Below, piece after piece: positions 1,655-30,886 of a stretch of 34,070 nucleotides of DNA. Both the position numbers and the translations under genes were made by a program. Location: IMG/VR virus record IMGVR_UViG_3300005904_000001, positions 1 through 34,070 of that record. One strand, written 5' to 3'. The DNA is from a virus. The notes beneath the pieces were generated by a model that saw only the letters and a program-made list of their open reading frames with translations, did no database searches and was not told where the DNA came from. Every line of letters begins with the position of its first letter. The stretch's first letter is position 1.

Positions 1655-4600
1655 TCAGCCCTTCACGAGCTGCCTTACCGTCGCGGCGTTCTTGATGATA
1701 TGGGAGATGACAACCTTTTCACCGTGCGATCCGGCCATCGCTGCGGGGATCGCACCTTCGTCCTGCACGAGAATACTGCGGATATTAACGGGCTGACTGC
1801 CGCCGCCCCCGTTCAGGATATTCCTCGGGTTGCTTTGCGATAAGACTTCTTCCCCGCGCTGAAGGACCGCAGCCTGTTCATCAGGGGCTAGACCGACAAT
1901 CGTACCACTGTGATATCGGGGAGCCGCAGCCCACCATGAGCCGGGAGCCCGGCCGCTAGTTGGCCGTTGCCCGACGACGCCGCCGCCATGCAGACCTAGA
2001 AATCCCAGCCCGAAAAGGCCGCTGCTGGTAGTCGTGGCGGTCGCTGTCGCTGCCGTAGTTGCCGCTGTCGTCGTTGTTGATGCTCCGCTTGAACTGCTGA
2101 ACAGGCTGGCGATGCCGCTGCTAATACTACCGCCTGTTCCCGAGCCGATCAGCTTCAGGGCCTCAGCCTTAATAACCGCCGTTGCGATGTCTTTCAGCAG
2201 ACCAGCGAAGAAATCAGCGACAGCAGTTCCGAGCGAGGACCATACGTCTTTCCAGCTCTTCGTCTTCGCGATCAATCCGCCGAGAGCTTCAGCCACAGTG
2301 TCGAAAGCTTTGTTGAGGTTCGTCCCGAATGAATCTTCAACCGCTTTCTTGATCGCCTTGAATTCCGGATCAACATACTTGACTTCGGATCGCAGCTCTT
2401 TGACTTTCGCCGTCAACAGTGCAATCGTTTCAGGCTTTAAATCCTTCGCTGTCGAAATGTACTTTTCAAGCGCGGCAGCCGCGTCAAGAATCGCAGGAGC
2501 GGTAAGTTCGAATGCTTGTTTCGTCAGCTTTTCTTGTTCGACGAGCGAAATATCACCGGATTCCTGAAGTTTGGCGTAGCTGCTGACAAGCTCCTTCCTT
2601 GTGGTTATAGCTTCGTTAGCCGACTGTTCAGCGGCCTTACGTTCGTTCAGCGCAAGGGCAGCCTGACGATTGGCTTCATTTTCATCCCTGAGAGATTGAA
2701 GTTTCGCCTTATCCGTAGTGCTTTGCCGTTCGTTCAGCTTTTCGATAGCTTTGAGCTGATTGTCGTAATAAAGGTTCGTCGCCGTATTCAACTGATCGAG
2801 CGCCGACTTATGGGCATTCAAGTTTTGTCGGCGGTCGTTATCAATCTGCTTTTCAAGAGCGTCGAGCTGATCTGTTTCAGTCTTTCGTTTCTGAATGTCA
2901 GCACGAGCTTCCGCTTCGCCCTTGTCTCGGACTTGTTGAAGGTCCTTATAGTTGGTAACGCCTCGCGCAGCAGCATCAGCCACGGCTTTCGCACCGGCAG
3001 CCTGAATGGCACTAGCGTTCCGGCCATCTTCAATCGCCTGCTTATTGCGGTTTTGCTGCCTCTCGTATTCATCCTTATTCTGCCGATAACGAAGTTGCTC
3101 GATATCCTGAAGAGCTTTCTGCCTAGCCTCTTCATCGGTCAGACCTTGGGCTTTGAACTTGTCGAGAGATTGAGTGAAGGCGATATTCCGTTCTTGCTCT
3201 TGACTCTGAGCCCTCAAAAGTTCGTTTTGAAGGCCTAATTCGCGAGTGATCTTCGCCGTGTTATCGACTTGGGTAGCTGTAGCCCCGGAAATTATCGATT
3301 GATCTACCGGAATTCGACCGGCTGTTTTAGCTGCCTCCGGTCCTCCGAGACTGAAATGCCCGGCATCCGGTTTACTGAAGGTAGAGCCTATAGCAACTGT
3401 TTCCCCGCGAGCTGCGGCAATAGCAGCCACGGCTTTATCAAGAACGTCGTATAATGGCCCTCCTTTACCCATTGAGCCAGGGACAGCATTACCGTTCTCG
3501 TCTACGATACGAACATCCATGGCTCTCTTGAAGCCATGCTCTGATGGTTGTCCGGTCCCGGCTACGGTAGCTCCCGGCCGATCCGTGCTAATAGCTTGAA
3601 CTGAATAGCCGGGAGGCAAAGCGCGAGTAGACTGAGAAATGATGTCCGCAAGCTTCTTCAGTTCTTCCGAATTGATAGGAAGTCCTTGCGTACTGAATCG
3701 CCCCGGTCCTCCTTGAGTGCTTGCGGGTCCTTCAGTCCCAATCAATCTATTAAAGAAACGCCCAATAGGATTGGTACGGATATCTTCTTCAGTAGCAAAA
3801 CCGCCAGCCCGAAGCGATTCATCCGTAATTTTTATCTTACTAAGCCGATCGATAACCTTATCGGCGACGGTAACTAGTCGCGTCATCAGGTCGATAATCG
3901 CGGTCAAAGCTTCCGAATCAGACAGATTGTCGATAAAACGATTCCACGATTTCCTTAAACCTTCAACAGATTCTTGAAACGGACTTAGCTTATCCTTTCT
4001 CGCCTTATCGTATTCCTCACCGAGAATACGAACGATTTCGGTTTGAGCTTTTCCCTCTTGACCTGATTGAAACAGAGAACGAATGTATTTCGCCTGTTCA
4101 GCCGTGATAGCTGGATATTTCTCAATTAGCTTGTCGAACGCATCCGTTCCGCCACCAATGCCTTCGGTCAAATCTTTCATGGCTTCAGGCACGGTTCGTC
4201 CCGTGACCTTCGCCATTGCCTCAGCGGCTAAAGTAACTTCCTTAATCTTGTCTGAACGAATGTTCGCATCAATCGCGATCTTGATCGCCTTACCGGCTTC
4301 GTCCCAACCGACTCCTAGATCACGGAGCGTCTTTCTGAGATCGGTTAAAGCCTGAGAGTTCTGTTCAGCAGAATACTTGTTCGTATCGAGAGCTGCGTTG
4401 AATTCACGAATCGATGCAGACTGCCGAAGATTGTTATTCAGGACTTCAACCGCTAACGTTACTGCACCCAAAGCTACAGCAACAGCAGGAAGCCAACGAA
4501 GAGCTGCCCGACCGAAAATTTGAAAGAATTGCCCACCCTGCTGAGCAAGAATTTGGGTTACATGCTGACCTTGAAGTAAACCGGAAACCACGTCGTTGAT

Positions 4601-19076: not shown

Positions 19077-19314
19077 CTTTCGCCTCGCTCGATTGATCGG
19101 TTGAAAGTAAGTTTTTGTCGTCAGACGGACGTTCATTTCTGGCTCCGCACCAAGGACAGAACCAATTAGGGCGGTCTAGCGGAGCATCGCCGATGCTCCA
19201 CCACATATTACAAACACCGCAACTGAAGTGAACGAGCCGTTCTACCGATTCCTTAAACTTCGCAGAACCCGCCCATGCACGCGAATTCCTTCGCGGCCTC
19301 CGTGTAATCATCAT
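19012..19314 (-). CDS. Zinc-ribbon protein
   Basis: This 100-residue frame carries CGVC (in HFSCGVCNMWWSIGD) and CPWC (in NWFCPWCGARNE), a clear pair of CxxC knuckles forming a zinc ribbon. Such small proteins often bind nucleic acid or act in protein contacts. The frame overlaps the ribonucleotide reductase end by 62 bp at its start and the next gene by 65 bp at its end, which is more than usual here. A Shine-Dalgarno AAGGAGG abuts the ATG at 19314, and no ATG, GTG or TTG lies between the reductase stop and the first knuckle. The ribbon supports coding, but the start is unsure. The C-terminal Ser/Asp-rich part may be dispensable. Confidence 0.65.
   Translation of the reverse strand: MMITRRPRRNSRAWAGSAKFKESVERLVHFSCGVCNMWWSIGDAPLDRPNWFCPWCGARNERPSDDKNLLSTDQSSEAKDERLSTGSRSYRSAGQRNAAS
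19104..19114. promoter_or_regulatory. Dispersed 11-bp motif, site 7 (AAAGTAAGTTT)
   Basis: This is an exact match to the dispersed consensus, 27 bp upstream of the likely start of the MazG-like gene and inside the low-complexity tail of the zinc-ribbon frame. Confidence 0.6.
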
Positions 19315-21268
19315 CCTCCTTGAACTCCGACCAATCGATTGTCTCAGGTGTTTTCGCCTTCAGTTCCTCGAATTGGACCTTCGTGCAAACGATGTAAGGA
19401 GCTTGTCGATATGTCCCACCATCATAAGGCAGAAACGCGATACCGGAAACCCAATTGAAATTCTTGTGAACCCAGCCGCCTACCTCCATCCACTCGCGGT
19501 CCTTCACCGAGATCGTGACGGATGGCTTGTGTTCGCAATAGTGCTGCTGATAGAGGAGCCATATCTGAAGATGCTCCATCGCTGAATAGTCGTCTCGGGT
19601 AATCGCGCCTTCCGGCACCGTTATGGGGAAATACATAACGCGCTCGGTTTCCGGTGCCGCGACTGAAGGCTCGGTATAGACGCCGCGCGTCGTCATGAAA
19701 GCCGCGACAGGATCGACGGTGTTCGCTCGGTTCGTCCTGATGTAGAAATTCTTCGTATGCCGGCCGTGCAGCCCCGAACTGCAATCAACGAGGTTCGAAT
19801 TGTTTCCCTCGGGCTTTACCGTCGTGATCGCGGCCGAACGATTGATACCAATGCGATCCGCCCAATCTGCATTTGTCTCGACAGCGAGATCGCGCATCAT
19901 CCCGAGAACGTTCGGCAGCTCAATCTTCACGCCATCGACAACGAAATCGTCCGACGTGAAAGTACCATTTCGAACATAGTCGAGCCCGGCCATGAATTTG
20001 TTGTCGAAGATGCCGTTCAAGCTGACGCCCAGCAGCCGTTCCTCTTCACAGTTCTTCCGCCAGTCATCTTGGAGGTAACGGAAATTCGTCAGCGTCGATT
20101 GCAGCGTACCGAGAATTGTCGAAAGCTTGATCTTATAAAGCAGCTCTCTCAATCCGTCGCTCGCGCGGATGATGTTAGTCGTCAAATTGCAGAACTGACG
20201 AGGACGCAAGATGATCTCACCGCACGGATTGAGCCCGTAATGATCGCCCCATTTATCCACGTCGATCCGCCGCGACCGTCGCGCCTGTTCGATCAGGGCT
20301 CGCCGACTGATTTGCCCACGCTCGCCGGCCTGAGAACGAATAAGTGCAAGCCATTCCTCCGCGAATTGAGTCGCAGAAGGCATGTCTGTCCAAACCGCTG
20401 AATTATTGGCAAGGCGAAAGTGAGGCTTACGATTCCACCACTCTCCTGACTTAGCATCTCGCATACGCTCGTCGGAAGGGTTCGATAGACTGATCTCCGC
20501 TCCCCGACGCACACCACCACTGTTCGCAACATCGCTTGCCTTCGTCATCAGGTCGTGGTTGTCATAGCTCGTCAGCCGACGAAGATCAGCATCAACCGAC
20601 GCCTTGAAGATGTCGATGGTATGTTGAAACAAATCCTCAAGCGGCTCCGGACCCGAGGCCCGTCCTCCGAACGTCATCAGCCGGGTTCCCTTGCCCCGGA
20701 CTTTCGACGTATTCCATGACGGTATGACGCCTTGGTAGAGCATCATAATCAGTTGGCGGAATGACTCACACCAGCCGATCTTGTCGTCCTCAACGACGAT
20801 AGTATAGTCGGTTTCGCCCAACGCATCCGGCAAAAACGGCATTTGGTTTGTGTATTGCCGTTCGACCGAGAAGCCGACGCCGACCGAACACATGGTAAGA
20901 TAGAAAGCCTCATCATGCGTTTGAATTCGATCACACGGCGCATAAGCACAGTTGTACGCCGCAGCGTTATCCCGCTCCAATGCCGGCCCTGCCGTCATCA
21001 TAGCTCGCATCGACGGCATCACGAGAAGGAACAGAATTCCTTCATAGATCGCAATCTGAGTCTCTTCAGGGATGAGGTATCCGAAATTGTGGTAGATATG
21101 GTTGAACAGAAAATGGCAATACCGGAAAACGGTTTCCGGCCAAAACTCACGCCGTCCCCATTCATCGACGTATCGACTGTATTTCGTCAAATGTGTCTGC
21201 TGCTGGTATAAAGACGGCAGGCTGATATGACGATAGTTGTCGAGCTTGATGAAACATGCGTCTTTCAT
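19253..21268 (-). CDS. nrdJ: Class II (adenosylcobalamin-dependent) ribonucleoside-triphosphate reductase
   Basis: This 671-residue monomeric enzyme reduces ribonucleoside triphosphates to dNTPs using adenosylcobalamin. It aligns by eye with the Lactobacillus leichmannii enzyme (about 739 residues). C107 (AAYNCAYA) and C360 (RPRQFCNLTT) match the redox pair; C349 and E351 in NPCGEI match the thiyl radical and acid residues. C664 and C669 (CMGGFCEV) match the C-terminal shuttle cysteines. The spacing C349 to C360 (11) and C664 to C669 (5) equals that of the reference enzyme. ANSGGVRRGAEISLSN is another family block. The start overlaps the helicase stop by 4 bp (ATGA). It makes the phage independent of host oxygen-linked reductase but needs host B12. 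Confidence 0.94.
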   Translation of the reverse strand: MKDACFIKLDNYRHISLPSLYQQQTHLTKYSRYVDEWGRREFWPETVFRYCHFLFNHIYHNFGYLIPEETQIAIYEGILFLLVMPSMRAMMTAGPALERDNAAAYNCAYAPCDRIQTHDEAFYLTMCSVGVGFSVERQYTNQMPFLPDALGETDYTIVVEDDKIGWCESFRQLIMMLYQGVIPSWNTSKVRGKGTRLMTFGGRASGPEPLEDLFQHTIDIFKASVDADLRRLTSYDNHDLMTKASDVANSGGVRRGAEISLSNPSDERMRDAKSGEWWNRKPHFRLANNSAVWTDMPSATQFAEEWLALIRSQAGERGQISRRALIEQARRSRRIDVDKWGDHYGLNPCGEIILRPRQFCNLTTNIIRASDGLRELLYKIKLSTILGTLQSTLTNFRYLQDDWRKNCEEERLLGVSLNGIFDNKFMAGLDYVRNGTFTSDDFVVDGVKIELPNVLGMMRDLAVETNADWADRIGINRSAAITTVKPEGNNSNLVDCSSGLHGRHTKNFYIRTNRANTVDPVAAFMTTRGVYTEPSVAAPETERVMYFPITVPEGAITRDDYSAMEHLQIWLLYQQHYCEHKPSVTISVKDREWMEVGGWVHKNFNWVSGIAFLPYDGGTYRQAPYIVCTKVQFEELKAKTPETIDWSEFKEDDDYTEAAKEFACMGGFCEV

Positions 21269-22818
21269 TTTTTCAGTCTCCGATGGAGCCGCTGTAAGCG
21301 ACGATACATGGCCTGTTGGGCATCTTCGAGATGTTGAAGCCGCTTAGCCACAACGTTATCCACAGTGCGCCGAGCGGCGAAAAGGTGAACCGTAACCGTC
21401 TCCTCCTGGCCTCTTCTATCGAGCCGGCCGATCAACTGTTCGAATAGCTCGGCCGAATGGAAGAGATCGAATACCGCGAGATGATGACCGCCGAACTGAA
21501 GTTCGATCCCGTGTGAAGCTGAAGCAGGATGAATGAACATCAACTTGAACTTCCGCCTATTCCACTGTTCGATCATCTTCCCTTGCGGGTCCATAACAGC
21601 CGCCTTGGGAAATCGTTGTTTCAAACGAGCGAGGGTAGGTTTGAACCAATAGGAGCAAAGAACCGGCTCATCTTGGGTTTCGTCGAGAAGCTGTTCTAAT
21701 TCCTCAAACTTACTTTCATGGAAAAAATGAACGCCGCGCTGATTGTCGTAGACCGCCCCCGATGCGAGCTGAAGAAGCTTGCCGTTCAAAATGCCGGCTG
21801 ACTTCGCTTCAATTATCTCCTCATCCGGAGCCTCAAGAATAGCCGTCTCCTCGAATTCCCGATATTGCTTGACGATGATATCGGGAAGTTGAACCGGCCG
21901 AATACGAATCATCGGCTCTTCCAAATCTCGGAAATCGGCTTTCCTGATCGGCAACACGATATCCGAGATGACCCGCTCCATCTCTTCTGCGCCGCCCGGC
22001 CGCAGGTCCCATTTCTTCGTGTAAAAGTTCTGAGTGAAATACCGTTGACGGAAAGCAGTTATCCCCCGACCGAATCGTTGTCCTTGGTCCAATAGATAAA
22101 TCTGCGAAAAGAAATAGATGTAGGATTGCTTTGCCGGCGTCGCCGTCAGCTCGTGAACACGGTCCATATACGGACGCATATCCTTGATCGCGTTGAACAC
22201 GTTTGAGTTATGATCCCGCAACTTCGACGACTCATCCCATATCAGAATCCGATACGGCCAAGGCTTCCGACGAGTGACGTAATAATCTACCAGCCAATCG
22301 GTTGCTTCATGATTGATGACATGAATCAAGGATCGGCTTTTCAAGAGATTCCGGCGAAGACGGTTTTTCAACTCTGTCAAATGCTGCCCGATCAAACTTA
22401 GTTTCGTCTTCGCGGCCTCCTTCCGATCCGTCATGTGAGAGAGTCGAGGATGCAGCTCTTCATTCATCCTTTTGCGCTCGGCTATCAAACGGGGATCGTC
22501 GTCTTCAACCCGGAGAATTGTAGAAGACATCCACGCGGTATGCCGCCATCGAGATATCTCAGGCTGCCAAACAGTATTCGCTACCTTGATCGGAGCATCG
22601 ATCAGCACTTTCGCGTGATACCCTTCAGCGAAAAGCCTATCGAGAAGCGTCAGGATGACAATAGTTTTACCGAAGCCGGTCCCAGCGAAGAGGGCTGAAT
22701 ACGGATGATCGTAGAGCCAATCGACTGCGTAATCCTGCGATTCAGTCAAATCTTCTCTGCCGCCCCGAACGGCAGTCCGGAAAAGTTGATCGAGATAGGA
22801 TTCGGCGCTGAACATCAT
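21265..22818 (-). CDS. SNF2-like (superfamily 2) DNA helicase
   Basis: This 517-residue protein starts at ATG 22818, which overlaps the upstream stop (ATGA); a longer start at 22848 is in frame but would overlap by 34 bp. It has the superfamily 2 motifs in order: Walker A GTGFGKT (46-52), the motif II variant LIWDESSKLRD, motif III LTATPAKQ, the late-motif HPASASHGIELQ and motif VI QLIGRLDRRGQ. It resembles the SNF2-type helicases that accompany DUF2800, DUF2815, PolA and VRR-NUC in many phage replication modules. It likely remodels or unwinds DNA during phage replication. Two dispersed motif copies (21706, 22394) lie within it. Confidence 0.9.
   Translation of the reverse strand: MMFSAESYLDQLFRTAVRGGREDLTESQDYAVDWLYDHPYSALFAGTGFGKTIVILTLLDRLFAEGYHAKVLIDAPIKVANTVWQPEISRWRHTAWMSSTILRVEDDDPRLIAERKRMNEELHPRLSHMTDRKEAAKTKLSLIGQHLTELKNRLRRNLLKSRSLIHVINHEATDWLVDYYVTRRKPWPYRILIWDESSKLRDHNSNVFNAIKDMRPYMDRVHELTATPAKQSYIYFFSQIYLLDQGQRFGRGITAFRQRYFTQNFYTKKWDLRPGGAEEMERVISDIVLPIRKADFRDLEEPMIRIRPVQLPDIIVKQYREFEETAILEAPDEEIIEAKSAGILNGKLLQLASGAVYDNQRGVHFFHESKFEELEQLLDETQDEPVLCSYWFKPTLARLKQRFPKAAVMDPQGKMIEQWNRRKFKLMFIHPASASHGIELQFGGHHLAVFDLFHSAELFEQLIGRLDRRGQEETVTVHLFAARRTVDNVVAKRLQHLEDAQQAMYRRLQRLHRRLKK
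21706..21716. promoter_or_regulatory. Dispersed 11-bp motif, site 8 (AAACTTACTTT)
   Basis: This is an exact match to the dispersed consensus inside the helicase gene. Site 9 lies 688 bp away. Confidence 0.55.
22394..22404. promoter_or_regulatory. Dispersed 11-bp motif, site 9 (AAACTTAGTTT)
   Basis: This is an exact palindromic copy inside the helicase gene. Confidence 0.55.
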
Positions 22819-23489
22819 CCGAGCCCGGTAGCCCTCGATTGAGCCCATTCATTCACTTGAAGAATCGGCCATACCCAATCAGGGCATCGACCGCGACCGA
22901 ATACCACGACTCCGATTGTCCCTTCCGGATTACCGAGACGTGCTTTGGCCTCAACAAATGAACGCCCCGTTGTAAGCACGTCATCGACGATAAGAACCGG
23001 ATATCCGGAATCGGGTTCGGCGTATCGATCAAGAGCTTGGGCGAAACGATTCCCGCCTCTCGGTATGCCGTAAACCGAGCGGAACGCAAACTTCCAAGCG
23101 ACGAGTTTTGCGAGTGCTGCCCAATCGGCACTGTCGAGAGCATCGCAATCAAGCTTCCAGGGAAGTTGGAATTTGCTATGGGTAGAGAACCAGCCGAATT
23201 TGAATAGGGCATTATAGATCGATCTTTCCTCATCGTTGACCGCTTTGCCCATTGGAAGCCAAATGACATGGGCTCCCCGGTGACGGGCCTCACGTTCGGC
23301 TGCCGCGATCATGATACCGCCGCCTTCCGGCCGAATCGTCACGGCTACCATGCCGGGCGGCGCATTTCTGACCATCATCCGAATCGTATGAGCGATATCG
23401 ATATTACGGCAGTCGAGAATGTACGGCTCGCCGTCAAGCTTATCTAAAGCTCCACTCAAAATATCTGGCGGTCTGATACGTCGGATCAT
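22815..23489 (-). CDS. Phosphoribosyltransferase-like protein
   Basis: This 224-residue protein carries the PRPP-binding signature VLIVDDVLTTGRSF (residues 165-177), preceded by FRSVYGIPRGGNRFA, the loop typical of type I phosphoribosyltransferases of the orotate/ComF kind. Such enzymes join a base to 5-phosphoribose. The N-terminal ~130 residues (VAVTIRPEGGGIMIAAAEREAR, then HVIWLPMGKAVNDEERSIYNALFKFGWF) are an extra domain I do not recognise. The gene overlaps the helicase and VRR-NUC genes by 4 bp each, so it is in the same operon. A role in nucleotide salvage, or in making a modified nucleotide, is inference. It may also be a regulatory PRTase without catalysis. Confidence 0.82.
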   Translation of the reverse strand: MIRRIRPPDILSGALDKLDGEPYILDCRNIDIAHTIRMMVRNAPPGMVAVTIRPEGGGIMIAAAEREARHRGAHVIWLPMGKAVNDEERSIYNALFKFGWFSTHSKFQLPWKLDCDALDSADWAALAKLVAWKFAFRSVYGIPRGGNRFAQALDRYAEPDSGYPVLIVDDVLTTGRSFVEAKARLGNPEGTIGVVVFGRGRCPDWVWPILQVNEWAQSRATGLG

Positions 23490-23821
23490 TTGAGCCCCAA
23501 TATCTTGTTAGCAGATTTCAAGTTATCGACGACGTAGACTTCGACGCCGGCTTCCCTGAGTTCGTTGATTCGCTTTTGCTGAAGCGGTTCGGGCTCTCTG
23601 CCGTGACGCTTCCATTCCATCAGAACCACGCGGCCCCGACCGCAATGAGGACACCGATCTTGCTCGGCGCATCTCGCATAGAACCGATCCGGAAACCCAT
23701 CGGTTGAAGTTCGCATGATCTTAGAGACGAACCATCCTGCCTTCTGAGCCCAGGTCCGATGATCGCGCTCGACTTCTTTCTCAAGCGGAACCCGTTCCAT
23801 GATCGGTTTGAATTTTCTCAT
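23486..23821 (-). CDS. VRR-NUC nuclease with zinc insertion
   Basis: This 111-residue protein fits the VRR-NUC branch of PD-(D/E)XK nucleases: GFPDRFYA holds the metal-binding Asp, VVLMEWKRHG the E-x-K pair, and LQQKRINELREAGVEVYVV the conserved Gln and last strand. An insertion, CAEQDRCPHCGRG, looks like a three-Cys zinc knuckle, seen in several phage members. These phage nucleases are thought to process branched DNA. The gene overlaps its neighbours by 4 bp on each side (ATGA), consistent with the coupled replication operon. Confidence 0.88.
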   Translation of the reverse strand: MRKFKPIMERVPLEKEVERDHRTWAQKAGWFVSKIMRTSTDGFPDRFYARCAEQDRCPHCGRGRVVLMEWKRHGREPEPLQQKRINELREAGVEVYVVDNLKSANKILGLK

Positions 23822-24372
23822 AGGTAATCATCTCCCCAGCCGTCCCATCCCGGTCGATAGCGCGTTGCGAAAAGCTCGCAATAAGGACCGGCCATAAGCC
23901 GCTCGATACGCGTCGCGCATTCCTCGGGCTTTCGACTGTGCTTCGTCGCCGGCTCCCATATCGTTGAGCGCACGTTCCGCTCGATACGCTTCGGAGAACC
24001 GCGCGTGAACAGGAGAACCGATTCGCTCTCCTGCCGGGACCAATGCCCCATCCCCATCTTCGGCTGTCCGTCCTTGGTCGTCTTTACCCATTCGAAAACC
24101 TTCGTTTTGAAGGTGAAACCCCAAGCCCGGCCGACTTCCATCGCCTGTTCGAAGTGAGCGCCGAAAGTCCAAAGGAAGAGGCCGCAATCCCGAGCTGCCA
24201 ATTCGGCAACCGGAAGGGCCTTCAAATCGGCTAAGGACATCACTTGATACGGCGCTTCCTCCGTGCGATGCGGCAGCGTCGGCCCGCTGTATGACTTGAA
24301 GGACCAGGGCGGGTCCGCCAGGATCACCCCGTAGGACCCGCTGCGGAGCCCCAGGAAGGCCCTGTTAGGCAT
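23818..24372 (-). CDS. MT-A70-family adenine DNA methyltransferase
   Basis: This 184-residue protein has the catalytic DPPW motif (residues 20-23, in VILADPPWSFKSY), then CGLFLWTFGAHFEQAMEVGRAWGFTFKTKVFEWVK and SVLLFTRGSPKRIER, the order of the MT-A70 (METTL3-like) group. The short RNATRYRPGWDGWG-type C-terminal region (FATRYRPGWDGWGDDYL) is also typical. Phage members methylate the N6 of adenine in DNA, likely to hide the genome from host restriction. It starts within the upstream stop (ATGCCTAA) and overlaps VRR-NUC by 4 bp. The target sequence cannot be read from the gene. Confidence 0.9.
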   Translation of the reverse strand: MPNRAFLGLRSGSYGVILADPPWSFKSYSGPTLPHRTEEAPYQVMSLADLKALPVAELAARDCGLFLWTFGAHFEQAMEVGRAWGFTFKTKVFEWVKTTKDGQPKMGMGHWSRQESESVLLFTRGSPKRIERNVRSTIWEPATKHSRKPEECATRIERLMAGPYCELFATRYRPGWDGWGDDYL

Positions 24373-25054
24373 CGTCGGGTAGGATGGTAGCCTGAACGGC
24401 AGTTCGGCCCTCCACAGCCCTCCCAGCGGCTTCTACAAGGGTAAGGAGATCGTCACCCTCCCGCCGAGCCCGAGCGTAAGGCCATTTGTCCGTTCTCGCG
24501 AGCCCTTCCCCTTCACCGTCGAAGTATTCCGGTTCCTCGTAAGGCTTTTTAGCCGGCCAGCCCTCAACGGCCGACTGAGGGATTATGAAACTGTCCCGCA
24601 CGTCAACCCGCATATTATCGGTCAATACCCACGGGCCGTCCGGATGACCGCTGTTTTCCAGAAGACGAAATACCTTCATGGCTTCAGCTTCAGGGATGAT
24701 TTTCATGTCCCATCCGTCTTCGCCTTTCCGGCGAACGGACATTTGGAAGCCAGGACCATCCGTCTTCGTGCCGTCAGACTTGGTGTAAACCGAGTTCTGA
24801 TAGAACAGGGTAAAGCCGCTGATCTCTCGCGGCCGGTGCGGTATGTCCGATAGTTCGGACAAGATTTTCTCAGCCAACGTGTTTTTCTCCTCTTGCGGAA
24901 GTTCCCATTTCCGCCAGTAATAGGGTCCGACAGTCCGTCCGGTGTTGCTGACGAACGAATCGCCGACTTCAATACGAGCGAATCGCAGCTCGTCAGGCAG
25001 CTCCCAAAGGCGTAGCTCTTCCGCCGAAGGATAGCCGAATGCGATGCCGATCAT
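24365..25054 (-). CDS. Unknown protein of the replication operon, 229 aa
   Basis: I do not recognise a family. The start ATG 25054 (MIGIAFGYPSAEE) has GGGG 6 nt upstream and overlaps the cupin stop by 4 bp, making it preferable to ATG 25060. The sequence is a mixed alpha/beta protein without membrane segments: FVSNTGRTVGPYYWRKWELP, a region MSVRRKGEDGWDMKII and a helical EAEAMKVFRLLENSG, ending in an acidic/proline stretch (KKPYEEPEYFDGEGEGLA) and a final helix. It overlaps the methyltransferase by 8 bp. The context implies expression with replication and DNA-modification genes. Confidence 0.8.
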   Translation of the reverse strand: MIGIAFGYPSAEELRLWELPDELRFARIEVGDSFVSNTGRTVGPYYWRKWELPQEEKNTLAEKILSELSDIPHRPREISGFTLFYQNSVYTKSDGTKTDGPGFQMSVRRKGEDGWDMKIIPEAEAMKVFRLLENSGHPDGPWVLTDNMRVDVRDSFIIPQSAVEGWPAKKPYEEPEYFDGEGEGLARTDKWPYARARREGDDLLTLVEAAGRAVEGRTAVQATILPDDA

Positions 25055-25692
25055 TCGCATCCCCGGCCCTTCGTGCCGTAATCCGATGATGTCGGATCGT
25101 CACCAAGGACATAGGTTTCCCAAGGAACCCATCTGGCCGAAAGGTTGCCGGGACACCAAAAGCCCCAATTGCGCCAGTGCGGGAATCCAAGGAACAGGGA
25201 CCATATCGCCTGCGGTTTCCCGTCCGCCTTCCACAGCACAACCCGGTGCGGAGTAGACGGCAGCCGAAGACGAGGCCGCAGGTATTCGACCCGCTTCAGA
25301 TAGGTTCTCGGCAACGGCATCCCTTCGACCGGCTTCACGCAATAAAGCTCTTCCCGGTAGCCGATAGGAGACAGCACAACCGAGATGTTCACCATCCGGT
25401 GATCGTGCAAATCTTCTTCATCGTCGCGCAGGAAGTTGTGCAGATAGCAGTTGACGAAACGGTTGCGCGGCCAAACGTACCAGCGCCAATACGTCGGGTT
25501 TTCGATCTTGAAGGAAGCCCCGACTTCGTTCGATCCGGCTCCCGGTAGAACCGGAGCGACAAGAACCTTCTTACCGCCGATGGCAATCGGATTATGCGGA
25601 TCGACGCCGACCGGATGCGCGTCTCGTGTCCGACGAATGAACGCGTCGATTTGGCGATCAGCCCATGACATGAGACGCCCACGGTATATCAT
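25051..25692 (-). CDS. Cupin-fold protein (phage family)
   Basis: This 213-residue protein resembles a cupin family found in many phages. NCYLHNFLRDDEEDLHDHRMVNISVVLSPIGYREE carries the metal-site H96-D97-H98, followed by the second cupin half LRLPSTPHRVVLW, AIWSLFLGFPHWRNWGFWCPG and RWVPWETYV. The more usual family motif is HDHPW; here Pro-Trp is replaced by Arg-Met. The role is unknown; a small metal-dependent enzyme acting on a nucleotide or sugar is possible. The start ATG 25692 overlaps the preceding small gene by 4 bp (ATGA). Confidence 0.78.
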   Translation of the reverse strand: MIYRGRLMSWADRQIDAFIRRTRDAHPVGVDPHNPIAIGGKKVLVAPVLPGAGSNEVGASFKIENPTYWRWYVWPRNRFVNCYLHNFLRDDEEDLHDHRMVNISVVLSPIGYREELYCVKPVEGMPLPRTYLKRVEYLRPRLRLPSTPHRVVLWKADGKPQAIWSLFLGFPHWRNWGFWCPGNLSARWVPWETYVLGDDPTSSDYGTKGRGCE

Positions 25693-25802: not shown

Positions 25803-27953
25803 TCATGCCTTTCGGTAATAGGCTCCGGACCAGCCGGCAGCGCCGAGAGGCAATCCCGAAGCCCATTCGATTGCCTCGTACATCAACTCGCCGAGGTATT
25901 GCCACGTAAACCTGTTGTCGCCGACACGTCCACGAGCGATCAGCTCGTCATGGGCATGGCCGACAAGCTTGAAACCTGCCTTGTGAGCCCGCATCATGCC
26001 GACCGCCAGGACATCCCTAGCTATCGCTTGCACGATGTTCTCGATTATCACGCCGCCGTGCGATTCGATCCGCCGCCAAACGTTCCGGCCTGTCGGCGTA
26101 TTGTCGCGGCCCCAATGCGTGAAAACCTTCCGGTAATAGCTCTCCTTGACCTTCTTCCCTCTGACGATCTTCTCGATTGTGATCTTCTTGTTTTCGATCC
26201 GTGGCTGATAGTAGTAGATGCGCCGGCCGCTCGGCAGAAGAATCGTCAGATATGGCGGATTCCGTTCAAACACCACAGGGCCGACCGTAACAGGGCCTTC
26301 GCCGCGCATAACCTTGCGGATCGCCTTCTCGTAAAGCTTCCAGTGCGCCGGTATCTCCTCATAGATATCCCGGTAAACGCCGACAGCTTTAGTCGCTGTC
26401 GGAATGTCCATGTCCACTCCCATATTTTCGGCATAACCGAGAAGCCCTGTCTTCTTACCATTCTCAAGCTCCTTGCCCGGCCCTAATCGAAACCCACAGC
26501 CGAGGGCTGGCGGTTTACATATGCCGCGCTCTTCACTGGTGATCTCGGATTCCGGTTTCCGATAGAACTCCTTTCCGAAATCACGATATGGATCGCGGCC
26601 ATCCTTGAACACTCTCAAGAGCCGCTTGCATTTCGTCACCCATGCGATAACGGCACTCTCAATAGATTTGAGATCGGCGGTTTTGAACTCCTCTCCGTCC
26701 GGACAACGGAACATCGATCTCATGCAGCCGGAAAGCGCGATCATCGGTTCCGGCACTGCCAGTTCCAAGTTTTTCATATCGCCGGCACGGATCAAATCAG
26801 TCACGAAAGTAAGTTTCGCATCCGATTTTTCAGCGTCGAGGAGTTTCGGCGTCCGTTTCACGTTCTGCGTCTGCACCTTGCGACCGGCCCAACGAAGGGT
26901 CCGTGATGCGCCGCCAAACTGAAGCGTATACCGAATACAATTTCCTGCCCCGACGACAAGCTTCGCTGTCTTCGCCTTGTTCACGCTCGTCAAGCTGGCG
27001 TACTGGCGCAGCTTGAGGACCTTTACCAGCAGCTTCGAAAGCCCTAGCTCCCTTCGTTTCTTCAACGTCTTCTTGACCGTATCAGCTCGAAGATCGGTAG
27101 CCGTGTATCCATGCTTCCTCAACCACGGCTTCAACTGAGTTGTCGAGTTCGGGTTCTCGCATCCCGTCAACTTGGACATCCTCGCGAGAAGCGCCTTGCG
27201 CCGCTCTGCCGACATCCAAATGATGTTCTCGACAAACTGCATATCGATAGGGATTCCCCGGTCGTTGATGAGCTGATCTAGCTCATACAATTCCCATTCG
27301 AACTCGGGGATCGGATATTTCTTCAAGCTCAACCGATGCAGGATAGCCTCTTCCGAGATTACGTCCTGCCGATTGTACTCGCAAAATTCTTCCCAAAGCT
27401 CAGGATCGGTAGTCCAATCTCGTATCCTATAAGGCTGGTTTTTCGTGACCTTGTTCGGCATACAGAAGATTTTGATGAGCTTCTTGCCGGTCGCCATCTT
27501 CTGTTTGTCTGACGGAAGGCCAATCTGAACGCCAATTTGTTCCAGCCGGCCGGCGAAGCAGTGCATGTACGACAGCACTTGCGAACAGCGCCAGCCTCGC
27601 CTCGGCGTCTTCAGCTTCAGGATACGTTTAGTGATAACCCGTTCGAACTGAGCGTTAAACGCCCACTTCTTCACCCGAGGGTCTAAGAGAGCCCGGCGAA
27701 GCTCGCTCGGCATCGGGCCGAGATGGGGGAACCATTGCTTGAGCTTCCCTTTGTTTATCCGGTATGCCGCCATCAGAACACGGCATGACGGATGGGCGCT
27801 GTAAACGTCTAAACCAACTTTCGTCAGGTCCAATTCGCAAAACGTTTCGAAATCGAGATGAAGCGTTCGAATAACCGGATGGAGGACCGACTCAAGCTCT
27901 GCGTCCGTCAGAACGCGGGCCGGCTTACCGACAAGCTTGAGAGGTTTGGTCAT
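25803..27953 (-). CDS. Family A DNA polymerase with 3'-5' exonuclease domain
   Basis: This 716-residue polymerase replicates the phage genome. The N-terminal exonuclease carries LHLDFETFCE (Exo I Asp-x-Glu) and later NRQDV. The polymerase motifs are A (TADLKSIESAVIAWV), B (ICKPPALGCGFRLG) and C (LVGHAHDELIAR, with the catalytic HDE). It is of the compact phage PolA type lacking a 5' nuclease. ATG 27953 (MTKPLKLVGK) is the chosen start, though its ribosome site is weak. An in-frame TTG at 28040 with GAGG upstream would add 29 residues and would make the upstream hairpin coding. A dispersed motif copy lies at 26806. Confidence 0.93.
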   Translation of the reverse strand: MTKPLKLVGKPARVLTDAELESVLHPVIRTLHLDFETFCELDLTKVGLDVYSAHPSCRVLMAAYRINKGKLKQWFPHLGPMPSELRRALLDPRVKKWAFNAQFERVITKRILKLKTPRRGWRCSQVLSYMHCFAGRLEQIGVQIGLPSDKQKMATGKKLIKIFCMPNKVTKNQPYRIRDWTTDPELWEEFCEYNRQDVISEEAILHRLSLKKYPIPEFEWELYELDQLINDRGIPIDMQFVENIIWMSAERRKALLARMSKLTGCENPNSTTQLKPWLRKHGYTATDLRADTVKKTLKKRRELGLSKLLVKVLKLRQYASLTSVNKAKTAKLVVGAGNCIRYTLQFGGASRTLRWAGRKVQTQNVKRTPKLLDAEKSDAKLTFVTDLIRAGDMKNLELAVPEPMIALSGCMRSMFRCPDGEEFKTADLKSIESAVIAWVTKCKRLLRVFKDGRDPYRDFGKEFYRKPESEITSEERGICKPPALGCGFRLGPGKELENGKKTGLLGYAENMGVDMDIPTATKAVGVYRDIYEEIPAHWKLYEKAIRKVMRGEGPVTVGPVVFERNPPYLTILLPSGRRIYYYQPRIENKKITIEKIVRGKKVKESYYRKVFTHWGRDNTPTGRNVWRRIESHGGVIIENIVQAIARDVLAVGMMRAHKAGFKLVGHAHDELIARGRVGDNRFTWQYLGELMYEAIEWASGLPLGAAGWSGAYYRKA
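26806..26816. promoter_or_regulatory. Dispersed 11-bp motif, site 10 (AAAGTAAGTTT)
   Basis: This is an exact match to the dispersed consensus inside the polymerase gene, with symmetric flanks (CGAAA and TTTCG). Confidence 0.55.
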
Positions 27954-27985
27954 ACGAAAAATCCGAAAATCAAACAAAGGACGAC

Positions 27986-28095
27986 TCCCCCACACCGCTC
28001 GCGTGCCTCGTGTGGGGGATCGTTCGACAAGGTGGAACAAGCGTTGCCGCCTCGGTACACGGAAAAACCTCGGCGAGCTGCCTAACGCGAGCGGT
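27986..28095 (-). promoter_or_regulatory. Structured leader upstream of the polymerase gene
   Basis: The gap between the ssDNA-binding gene and the polymerase start holds a 10-bp hairpin, 27986-27995 with 28010-28019 (five C, ACAC, 14-nt loop). It also holds a second, longer-range 11-bp perfect inverted repeat: ACCGCTCGCGT at 27994-28004 with ACGCGAGCGGT at 28085-28095. The near arm of the second repeat lies in the loop and edge of the first hairpin, so the two folds compete, as in attenuators. There is no clean U-tract after the hairpin. The region could equally be a replication site. Confidence 0.5.
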
Positions 28096-28103
28096 CGAAC
28101 CTG

Positions 28104-28760
28104 CTAAACTTCGTCGTCATCATCATCATCATCGTCATCGTCGTCGTCATCGTCCTCCGCGTAGTTGTCCATTTCCTCGTCGATCTCGTCATCCGAGATG
28201 CGACCCTGCCCGAACGGCTCGCCATCCTTGGCAAACTGAACGGCGACGAGGCCCGCGTTGACCTTCTTGCCGAATTTGTTGTTCATGAACCACGGGCGGA
28301 TCACGGCGTTGACGTAGCAGCCGCCATAGATCACGTCGTCATCGACTCCCGGCTTCAGAACCTTCGGCTTCCCGGTTTTCGAATCGCGGATGCGATGCCG
28401 AACCGCGACCTTCTTCGATTCGGAGGCGTTGATGGTCCAGTGACCTTCGTTCTCCTCCTTCTCGCTGAGATCGCCGTCGCGAAGGAATTTGTTGTCGGCC
28501 TTCAGTTTCTTCTGCTTGTTCTCCTTCATCAACTGCGCGATCCGATCTTCGATCAGCTCGCGAGCCGGCCGGTACGCCTTCTTCTTCGGCAGCAGAAGGA
28601 CGATGCTGTGCTTCGCCTTGGCGTCGTCGTCATCGCCCTTGTACTTGGTCAGGACATGCGGATAGGAACACCGCACCCCTTCGACGAAAATCGTGCCGTC
28701 GCTGTAAAGCTTGGCATACTTCACTTCCTTGACGACAACACGCGGTTCTTTCTCAGCCAT
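28104..28760 (-). CDS. DUF2815 single-stranded-DNA-binding protein
   Basis: This 218-residue protein matches the DUF2815 family, ssDNA-binding proteins found beside DUF2800 and PolA in phage replication modules. Family-like segments are GVRCSYPHVLTKYKG, KHSIVLLLPKKKAYRPA, the PVL-like VIYGGCYVNAVIRPWF and LVAVQFAKDGEPFGQGRIS. The C-terminus is a run of Asp ending in Glu-Val. Acidic C-terminal tails in T7 gp2.5, T4 gp32 and bacterial SSB recruit replication partners and compete with DNA, so the tail is probably functional. The tract is encoded by tandem GAY codons. The start ATG 28760 has AGGAG 6 nt upstream. Confidence 0.9.
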   Translation of the reverse strand: MAEKEPRVVVKEVKYAKLYSDGTIFVEGVRCSYPHVLTKYKGDDDDAKAKHSIVLLLPKKKAYRPARELIEDRIAQLMKENKQKKLKADNKFLRDGDLSEKEENEGHWTINASESKKVAVRHRIRDSKTGKPKVLKPGVDDDVIYGGCYVNAVIRPWFMNNKFGKKVNAGLVAVQFAKDGEPFGQGRISDDEIDEEMDNYAEDDDDDDDDDDDDDDEV

Positions 28761-28979: not shown

Positions 28980-29149
28980 TCTTCGCGCTCCTCCGGTGTT
29001 GCCGTCAGGTTGTTGCACATGGCGATGGACTGCGCTTCGTCCTTGCTTTTGACTTGCTGTGCCTTGCCGTTCGGGAAGACAACGTACCAATGACCTTCCT
29101 GTTGGACGGCAACACAACCCATCCGGTGATCGTATGGTTCGAACCTCAT
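28967..29149 (-). CDS. Small protein, 60 aa
   Basis: ATG 29149 overlaps the DUF2800 stop by 4 bp (ATGA), with a G-rich ribosome site (GGGGGA) 6 nt upstream. The product has a strand pair (MGCVAVQQEGHWYVVFPNG), then a helix (SKDEAQSIAMCNNL) and an acidic/basic end (EEREEW). This is the kind of tiny alpha/beta protein common in phage replication operons. No function is known. The end overlaps the next small gene by 13 bp. Confidence 0.72.
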   Translation of the reverse strand: MRFEPYDHRMGCVAVQQEGHWYVVFPNGKAQQVKSKDEAQSIAMCNNLTATPEEREEWRH

Positions 29150-30408
29150 TCGAAATCCCCCGTATAGTCGGGAAGAGCCTCCCGGTCGTCTTCACCCTTG
29201 CGAACCAATGTCGGCTTGCCGGGCAATCGATCAACGAACAGCTCAATATATTGCTCAAGAACCTTTCCGCGAAAGCCGTACTCCCGTAGAACCTTCGTCA
29301 TCTTGTTCGGAGACAGCAGCTCCCGCTCGAAAATCTCATCCTCGGGAATGCCCAGCAAACTAAGTTTCTCGGCAAGCTTTTTCGGCTCCTTCCAATGCCT
29401 GAACTTACGCCCTTCGGTGATGTAGAATTCCCCGATGTCCTCGCCGTCAGAGCCACGTTCAAGCAGGACTTCTCCAATCCGTCGAAACCAAGTTTCGAAG
29501 ATGCGCCTGAACGCATAGATCCGAGCTAATTCCTGCGTCGAGAGACGAAGGACCGTCGTTTCCATTGACTTTGGAGGCGTGAAGATCGTAACCGCTTTAG
29601 CCTCTTTGGCCGAAACGGTAGTTTCTTCGAAACTTTCATCGGCGATAGCCTCCAAAGCCGCCAGCTTCGCCCGGCAATCATCTCGCCGTTTGCACCACGT
29701 ACACTGCTTGACGCCAACTGTGTACGAGCGGTTGTTCCGCTTCCACGCTTTCTTCGCACGGACCTTTGCCCACTCCATCCAGTCAAGCAACTCTTGCCGA
29801 GTGATCTCCCAAAGGTCCCAATGCTTCAATCTCGGCTGAGCAATGTGCAGCCCCATCGTCTCAAAGTGATAAAGCCAATCGTGTTCTTCAAAAACTCCCG
29901 CCATATAGAGGAGGAGCTGAGTATTGTCTTTCGCGAAAACCTTTATCCCCGTCCCGTACTTCCAATCAATAATGTCAGCACGGCCAGAAGCAACAAATCC
30001 AACATCGAGAGTGCCGCTTTGATTGGGAATGGGTGTGATATGACTGATATCAACCCGCTGCTCAACGTACCTGCGGCCAAGAAAATCTCTAATATACGCA
30101 AAACATTGCTCCCCGTAGAAAAACATATCCTCATCGACTTCAATGAGGAAAGGTTTGTCCGTCTTAGTGTTGGCGTTCTGCGGCCATACCTCGGCAATCT
30201 GATGCAGGCGATAGGCCGGCTCCTCTCCGGTGTTCAGCCATTCGGCCATGAGATCATGAAACACGGTTCCCCGTGCTGCATCCTCTCCTGCGCTGTCTGG
30301 ATAAAACCGACCGTCGAGAAGCGCGGCCTCACAATTAAGCCAAGTCGCGGAATAGCTCGGGCGAAAGAGGACTATCGCCTCTTCTTCATAGAGATTGTCT
30401 TCAGACAC
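29146..30408 (-). CDS. DUF2800 protein (PD-(D/E)XK nuclease-like)
   Basis: This 420-residue protein is a DUF2800 member, related to Cas4/AddB-type PD-(D/E)XK nucleases. The N-terminal RGTVFHDLMAEWL holds the motif His, VASGRADIIDWKYGTGIKV holds the catalytic Asp and the D-x-K pair, and NTQLLLYM holds the QxxxY-like helix. A Cys cluster (CTWCKRRDDC plus an N-terminal Cys in WLNCEAALL) fits the iron-sulfur site of this group. It precedes DUF2815 and PolA, the usual module order, and likely processes DNA ends in recombination or replication. GTG 30408 is the start, with GGAG 7 nt upstream. A dispersed motif copy is inside at 29357 and a one-mismatch copy at 29485. Confidence 0.88.
   Translation of the reverse strand: MSEDNLYEEEAIVLFRPSYSATWLNCEAALLDGRFYPDSAGEDAARGTVFHDLMAEWLNTGEEPAYRLHQIAEVWPQNANTKTDKPFLIEVDEDMFFYGEQCFAYIRDFLGRRYVEQRVDISHITPIPNQSGTLDVGFVASGRADIIDWKYGTGIKVFAKDNTQLLLYMAGVFEEHDWLYHFETMGLHIAQPRLKHWDLWEITRQELLDWMEWAKVRAKKAWKRNNRSYTVGVKQCTWCKRRDDCRAKLAALEAIADESFEETTVSAKEAKAVTIFTPPKSMETTVLRLSTQELARIYAFRRIFETWFRRIGEVLLERGSDGEDIGEFYITEGRKFRHWKEPKKLAEKLSLLGIPEDEIFERELLSPNKMTKVLREYGFRGKVLEQYIELFVDRLPGKPTLVRKGEDDREALPDYTGDFE
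29357..29367. promoter_or_regulatory. Dispersed 11-bp motif, site 11 (AAACTAAGTTT)
   Basis: This is an exact palindromic copy inside the DUF2800 gene. A near copy, AAACCAAGTTT at 29485-29495, has 7-base inverted arms (TCGAAAC and GTTTCGA). Confidence 0.55.
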
Positions 30409-30452: not shown

Positions 30453-30809
30453 CTAGTCGTCGTCGTCATCGTCATCATCGTCGTCGTCGTCATCGTCGTC
30501 CTCGGCCTCCTTGATCGCGGCCTCAGCGGCAGTGATGAACGCGGCGTAATGCTTCGGATCGAGTTCGGCGGTCGCGCTGACTTTGCCGATCTTCTTCAGC
30601 AGCTTGACGACGGTGGGTTTGTCGGTCGCATCGCGAAGCTTCTCGCCGATGGCCTTCACCGCGTCGAGCGTCGGCCCCTTGTCCTTCTTGCCGGCTTTGC
30701 CGGGCTTCTCGCCGGTTGCGTCGCCGACGCCGCCCTTGAACTTTTCGAGGGCCTTCGTCAACGCGATGTTGGACTCCGTGTTTTCTTTCAACGCTTGTTC
30801 GAGCGACAT
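30453..30809 (-). CDS. Poly-Asp-tailed protein, first gene of the leftward operon
   Basis: This 118-residue protein starts at ATG 30809 (MSLEQALKEN) with GGAG 9 nt upstream; an in-frame TTG at 30824 is a weaker choice. The N-terminal half is helical and Lys-rich (ALTKALEKFKGGVGD, then GKAGKKDKGPT). The second half has AVKAIGEKLRDATDKPTVVKLLKKIG and HYAAFITAAEAAIKEAE, followed by an uninterrupted run of about 15 Asp to the stop. It is the first gene downstream of the leftward promoter, so it should be made early and at a high level. I do not recognise the family. Its acidic tail mirrors that of the DUF2815 protein, suggesting contact with a shared partner. Confidence 0.8.
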   Translation of the reverse strand: MSLEQALKENTESNIALTKALEKFKGGVGDATGEKPGKAGKKDKGPTLDAVKAIGEKLRDATDKPTVVKLLKKIGKVSATAELDPKHYAAFITAAEAAIKEAEDDDDDDDDDDDDDDD

Positions 30810-30835: not shown

Positions 30836-30864
30836 TTGCCAGAAGGGCAACGAAAAGATAGTAT
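30836..30864 (+). promoter_or_regulatory. Rightward sigma70-type promoter candidate
   Basis: TTGCCA (30836-30841) and TAGTAT (30859-30864) are separated by exactly 17 bp, the ideal sigma70 spacing. Transcription would begin near 30871, about 30 nt before the helix-turn-helix gene. The -10 box coincides, offset by one base, with that of the leftward promoter on the other strand. The inverted repeat TTGCC-AGAAG-GGCAA (30836-30850) overlaps the -35 box and could be an operator. Confidence 0.7.
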
Positions 30865-30886
30865 CATCCGCTGGATGACCCTGCAA
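30858..30886 (-). promoter_or_regulatory. Leftward sigma70-type promoter candidate
   Basis: On the minus strand TTGCAG (30886-30881) and TACTAT (30863-30858) are separated by exactly 17 bp. Transcription would begin near 30851, about 42 nt before the poly-Asp gene start, and could read the whole leftward operon. A perfect inverted repeat TCATCC-GCT-GGATGA (30864-30878) fills the spacer between the two boxes, where a bound repressor would block it. Confidence 0.7.

Follow-up and report, generated by a model that had tools for sequence, protein, structure and literature searches.

Positions 30836-30886 of a 34,070-base virus record, hereinafter the window, comprise about 50 bases that, on direct reading of the sequence, appear to be the common start region of two diverging genes and can be read both ways. 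This raises the question of how transcription might be controlled at a locus where two opposed promoters share a -10 region. The initial annotation had proposed that RNA polymerase bound in one orientation must exclude the other, making the locus a bistable switch. We instead favor a different reading, which we regard as probable though open to real doubt, namely that a Casjensviridae-like phage here uses a bidirectional sigma70 promoter, at which a Cro-like protein would bind a dyad and shut off both directions.

Two opposed promoters with a common -10 region

The two promoters described in the initial annotation, TTGCCA-17-TAGTAT on the + strand and TTGCAG-17-TACTAT on the - strand, are both present where it had placed them, and the single-base offset between their -10 boxes is borne out by the sequence (Table 1). 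The -10 elements overlap reciprocally on opposite strands, which is one feature by which Warman et al. recognize bidirectional promoters. They lie in a gap of about 90 bp (88-90) between the two divergent start codons (30809 and 30900), and the predicted transcription starts are separated by 20 bp. The rightward promoter agrees with 9 of the 12 positions of the sigma70 consensus and the leftward promoter with 7, though the sigma preference of the host may differ from this consensus.

Table 1. Coordinates of the predicted regulatory elements and of the flanking genes in the window
Feature	Position	Strand	Evidence and remarks
Rightward -35, TTGCCA	30836..30841	+	Sequence, consensus scan; weight-matrix score 11.2, shuffle p 0.005
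Rightward -10, TAGTAT	30859..30864	+	Sequence, 17-bp spacer; predicted start ~30871
Leftward -35, TTGCAG (+ strand CTGCAA)	30881..30886	-	Sequence; poor hexamer, 3/6
Leftward -10, TACTAT (+ strand ATAGTA)	30858..30863	-	Sequence, 17-bp spacer; predicted start ~30851
Short inverted repeat, TTGCC-AGAAG-GGCAA	30836..30850		Predicted 5' end of leftward transcript; includes rightward -35
Operator-like dyad, TCATCC-GCT-GGATGA	30864..30878		Perfect; consensus TCRTC-N5-GAYGA, one exact match in window
Cro-like helix-turn-helix regulator, 99 aa	30900..31199	+	Family profile, predicted structure, AH2 orthologue annotated Cro
Primase-polymerase, 840 aa	31212..33734	+	PHROG 1156 DNA primase, E=3.5e-86; tblastn to AH2 primase-polymerase
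First leftward gene, 118 aa, poly-Asp tail	30453..30809	-	ATG at 30809; orthologues at same place in relatives
Exonuclease, second leftward gene	29146..30408	-	PHROG 69, E=3e-69
Gp2.5-like single-stranded DNA binding/annealing protein (SSB)	28104..28760	-	PHROG 112, E=3.7e-41
DNA polymerase (family A type)	25803..28040	-	PHROG 17, E=1e-96

A match to the consensus means little by itself, since a plain consensus scan covering 14 kb recovered 5 promoter-like sites, fewer than the 7.5 +/- 2.6 encountered in shuffled sequences. We scored the intergenic region with a sigma70 weight matrix and compared it with 3000 dinucleotide shuffles. The best + promoter was significant (p = 0.005), the leftward promoter was weak and not significant alone (p = 0.11), and the two taken jointly had p = 0.0007. 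Just 0.13% of the intergenic shuffles contained a face-to-face pair of this quality with an offset within 1 bp (p = 0.0013). Across the entire 34-kb window the rightward promoter is the top sigma70 match and the sole promoter on either strand to score at least 11.1, and the pair is likewise the sole one of its kind. Our first view, that the pair was a chance by-product of the symmetry of the -10 sequence, was countered by these shuffles and by the relatives described below. We also considered a hairpin at the 5' end of the leftward transcript, formed by the short inverted repeat, but do not advance it as a main claim, as its predicted folds were no better than those of shuffles; an Rfam search gave no match. 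Repeats resembling this one are also present in two related loci (L012 and L016) and in Sphingomonas phage Carli.

Gene neighborhood and phage affiliation

The leftward promoter precedes a block of replication genes, and the rightward promoter a small regulator and a large enzyme (Table 1). This gene content is as the initial annotation had described it, except that the right-hand enzyme is better named a primase-polymerase than a primase-helicase. The window also encodes a helicase, ribonucleotide reductase, large terminase, portal, capsid and tail proteins. This gene content and the local gene order match those of the Casjensviridae AH2, BcepNazgul, phiAxp-2 and JS26, and the same local order is seen in the related Carli, FoX4 and Erythrobacter phages, and also in R22L. 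In these phages the polymerase-SSB-exonuclease-small ORF block points leftward, while the small regulator and primase point rightward, an order kept in most of about 90 loci. In its replication and virion gene order the virus agrees with the chi/Nazgul group, and by gene content it is a Casjensviridae-like phage; the related chi phage has been described as lytic (PMC4342425). That two real-looking, overlapping and opposed sigma70 promoters head a leftward replication unit and a rightward helix-turn-helix (HTH)/primase unit is supported by the sequence, from which we infer that both promoters would be active.

Promoter geometry in related loci

Searches of viral contigs with the single primase or the single regulator protein drew in no relatives, and family alignments were required to recover them; distant blastn searches in named phages gave weak primase and SSB matches and nothing else. 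The resulting set consisted of 80 loci from viral contigs and later additions, with intergenic regions mostly beside orthologous genes. Closest to the window, by regulator or primase, are four loci (L012, L013, L016 and L095) with gaps of 85-118 bp. In all four a leftward promoter occupies the corresponding position: TTGACG-18-TATCCT in L012, TTGACC-18-TATTCT in L013, TTGACG-18-TAAGCT in L016 and TTGCAT-18-TAGTCT in L095, where it is just the second best. Those of the first three score 10.3-11.5 (p 0.009-0.03). Interleaved with these are rightward promoters (p 0.002-0.06 in the four relatives), namely TTGCAA-18-TATCGT in both L012 and L016, TTGTCA-17-TATCAT in L095 (p 0.002) and TTGACG-18-TAAGTT in L013. 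The offset of the rightward -10 is not fixed, being +1 in the window, +4 in L012, L016 and L095, and +13 in L013. As interleaved promoters occur in all four relatives, overlapping face-to-face promoters are a trait of this group, with a variable offset. The primase of L095 sits on a very long branch of the primase tree and its placement is unsure; family similarity in this gene (from position 3001 of that locus) ends after about 398 residues, which suggests that the frame is broken or the C-terminal part replaced.

Family-wide, a shared -10 region (within 3 bp) is not enriched: it was seen in 9.6% of cases as against 11.6% in shuffles. Both promoters score at least 6 in 45 of 66 dereplicated relatives, and among these 45 the shared -10 class again shows no enrichment (4 observed, 2.85 expected). 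A back-to-back arrangement, with -10 boxes 38-43 bp apart and -35 hexamers that abut or overlap, is present in 15 of the 45, while simulations gave a mean of 0.85 and no more than 3 for -10 distances of 36-44. This indicates that overlapping or abutting -35 hexamers are the commonest arrangement in the family and that the group containing the window is a compact variant. Back-to-back promoters of this kind are seen, among others, in L005, L021, L024, L028, L032, L046, L060, L070 and L089. In five loci (L005, L024, L070, L089 and L008) the leftward -10 is closely followed by a conserved TTCGTTCCG-like block, located where the transcript is predicted to begin. Face-to-face promoters with a common -10 also occur in a separate clade (L064, L066, L069 and L072), as TTGCAA-17-CACTAT against TTGACT-17-CATAGT with an offset of -1 or +1, and are strongest in L072. 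Control of cro-primase and of polymerase-SSB-exonuclease from a divergent region thus appears to be conserved in the Casjensviridae-like group across several promoter geometries.

The Cro-like regulator and an operator-like dyad

The first rightward gene codes for a protein of the Cro-like HTH type, as the family profile indicates: a profile of 70 orthologues matches Cro (3bd1, E=1e-8) and XPH1 (5w8y, E=2.5e-6), while the protein of the window by itself matched no Pfam family. The orthologue in AH2 owes the name Cro to its match to a Xylella Cro (PMC3483164). Structure prediction, in which rows from annotated records were left out, gave a small helical HTH protein (pLDDT 83). Foldseek with this model returned no match at E<=0.001, and VIA gave middling HTH matches (Z about 5-6), which may reflect no more than a shared helical layout. 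The Cro-like protein is the single regulator visible in the window, where no homologue of the CI-like gp70 of AH2 was detected by blastp at E<=1, though the window is perhaps only part of a genome.

A perfect dyad adjoins the leftward -10 within the leftward spacer, and its center coincides with the predicted rightward start. In L012, L016 and L095 the consensus TCRTC-N5-GAYGA recurs at the position that aligns with it, with variation in the middle five bases. The regulator alignment covers 63 loci; exact matches to this consensus occur in four of them, which are exactly the four whose regulator has an (A/T)LKSQ recognition helix. L013 combines an LRSQ helix with one degraded dyad arm, and the remaining 58 have neither the dyad nor the LKSQ helix. 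In the primase tree, the LKSQ group falls to one side of a branch supported at 89. Allowing at most one mismatch, TCATC-N5-GATGA is found in 4 of 94 intergenic regions, all belonging to the group of the window, as against 11 of 2820 shuffled regions. It should be noted that these counts overstate the independence of the observations, because the consensus came in part from the very loci to which it is applied and was loosened after some of them had been seen, and because the loci share ancestry. Nevertheless, the pairing of helix and dyad in the sequence is the strongest regulatory clue at this locus. The dyad is probably the binding site of the virus's own repressor, and LKSQ helix and TCRTC-N5-GAYGA dyad offer a testable operator-recognition pair.

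Comparison with known divergent promoters

The locus resembles lambda PR/PRM with OR in having a Cro-family protein at a divergent promoter region. However, in lambda the two promoters stand apart in back-to-back orientation and are served by three operators and two repressors, whereas the window has one dyad and one visible regulator. The initial annotation had contrasted the geometry, read as a compact bistable switch, with the separated PR/PRM arrangement of lambda. It is no exotic alternative to lambda, and a claim of a new kind of switch fails, as the geometry is already known from a published and very common class, the bidirectional promoters of Grainger, Wade and colleagues. In the accounts of this class, opposed promoters have a common -10 region and starts 7-25 bp apart, and give 19% of the detected RNAs of E. 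coli (PMC12825309, PMC10268837). Those on the Salmonella chromosome are biased towards divergent intergenic regions (PMC12825309, PMC10268837). The region studied here is similar in consisting of opposed sigma70 promoters with a common -10 between divergent genes of linked function. Its separation of 20 bp, computed from starts predicted from sequence, falls inside this published range; it is not among the preferred values (18, 10 and 23), while L012, L016 and L095 would give 23. It differs further in belonging to a phage and in having an embedded dyad operator. The regulation of bidirectional promoters has been described as hardly studied (PMC12825309), and the locus provides a compact phage example.

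The soxS/soxR pair is alike in that the regulator site occupies one promoter's spacer while covering the divergent start, and in that one of the divergent genes encodes the regulator (PMC12825309), but SoxR is a MerR-type activator whereas the Cro-like HTH protein is probably a repressor. The Pc/Pr promoters of pLS20 with Rco, a switch on a mobile element, are similar in that the divergent promoters coincide and the regulator gene lies to one side of them; there, however, it is the -10 of one promoter that is proposed to fall on the -35 of its partner, and Rco both activates and represses with DNA looping (PMC4207663), while neither a second operator nor a loop is seen in the window. The nearest counterpart in gene order is the Cro-primase divergon of AH2 (gp77) and BcepNazgul (gp73), which has an orthologous Cro-like protein (PMC3483164), but its intergenic region is about 180 bp long, and BcepNazgul has separate back-to-back promoter matches without the TCRTC-N5-GAYGA dyad.

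Proposed regulation of the bidirectional promoter

In the reading that we favor, the A+T-rich core at 30858-30864 would serve as the -10 region for polymerase in either orientation, a single melted core giving leftward transcription into the replication genes from about 30851 and rightward transcription into the regulator and primase-polymerase genes from about 30871. The Cro-like protein would bind the dyad, which sits between the two leftward hexamers and covers the predicted rightward start, and would block both starts. This would result in autorepression of the cro-primase operon, and the leftward operon would be turned down as the protein accumulates. That the dyad is occupied, and which way regulation works, we infer from sequence features. 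Since the products of both operons act in replication, it is easier to see why the two would be controlled together than why one should exclude the other.

It is conceivable, though unlikely, that the leftward promoter, whose -35 and -10 are conserved, is alone real, with the rightward match being a by-product of the -10 symmetry and the TTGCC..GGCAA repeat, and the regulator being transcribed from another start. The TTGCC/TTGCA segments of L012, L016 and Carli lie within a short inverted repeat that could be kept for some other reason, the rightward -10 of L013 sits elsewhere, and -10 boxes within 3 bp of each other are not rare in shuffles. Yet the window holds no stronger promoter match than the + one, L095 has a strong rightward promoter of its own, the repeat folds no better than shuffles, and the 90 bp contain no other good + promoter. 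Somewhat less probable still is a scheme in which a single Cro-like repressor in the shared core blocks partially or in an orientation-selective manner and so sets the ratio of the two halves of the replication machinery, the layout having arisen by compaction of the family's back-to-back promoters with overlapping -35 hexamers.

We consider it quite doubtful that the dyad sets direction, with the Cro-like protein in the leftward spacer favoring one orientation of polymerase by analogy with SoxR. MerR activators correct long promoter spacers, but the leftward spacers here are of 17-18 bp, and Cro-family proteins are not DNA benders of the MerR type. In favor of such a scheme is the placement of the dyad, which, as with SoxR, falls inside the spacer of one promoter and covers the start of its partner (PMC12825309).

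Least tenable of all is the exclusion switch, in which polymerase at the common -10 would impose mutually exclusive leftward and rightward states: overlapping -10 boxes do sterically bar simultaneous binding in both orientations in this class, but a working switch does not follow, because in E. coli the five bidirectional promoters tested were basally too weak for polymerases to compete, and the divergent RNA was repressed only upon strong activation of one direction (PMC12825309). Both promoters of the window are below consensus, and their outputs, SSB and polymerase on one side and primase on the other, serve a single process, replication. Bistability is unsupported, since it needs mutual repression or positive feedback and just one regulator is visible; neither positive feedback nor a second repressor was seen in the window, which may be just part of the genome. 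The lytic description of chi phage also speaks against it, and nothing here shows a two-state switch. The dyad, which the initial annotation had not recorded, offers a firmer footing for regulation than exclusion between polymerases.

Additional features of the window

Several other genes lie amid the replication genes on the - strand, namely those for ribonucleotide reductase (19253-21268), an MT-A70 methyltransferase (23818-24372) and a cysteine-dioxygenase-like protein (25051-25692). A 224-aa protein encoded at 22815-23489 (-) matched nothing confidently in Pfam, in PHROGs or among PDB sequences, and contains a VLIVDDVLTTGRS motif typical of phosphoribosyltransferases. Related GAC/GAT repeats at 30457-30506 and 28111-28194 (88% and 75% identical DNA) encode the poly-Asp ends of the first leftward protein and of the Gp2.5-like SSB, respectively, and the presence of such ends on both proteins suggests a shared acidic-tail function.
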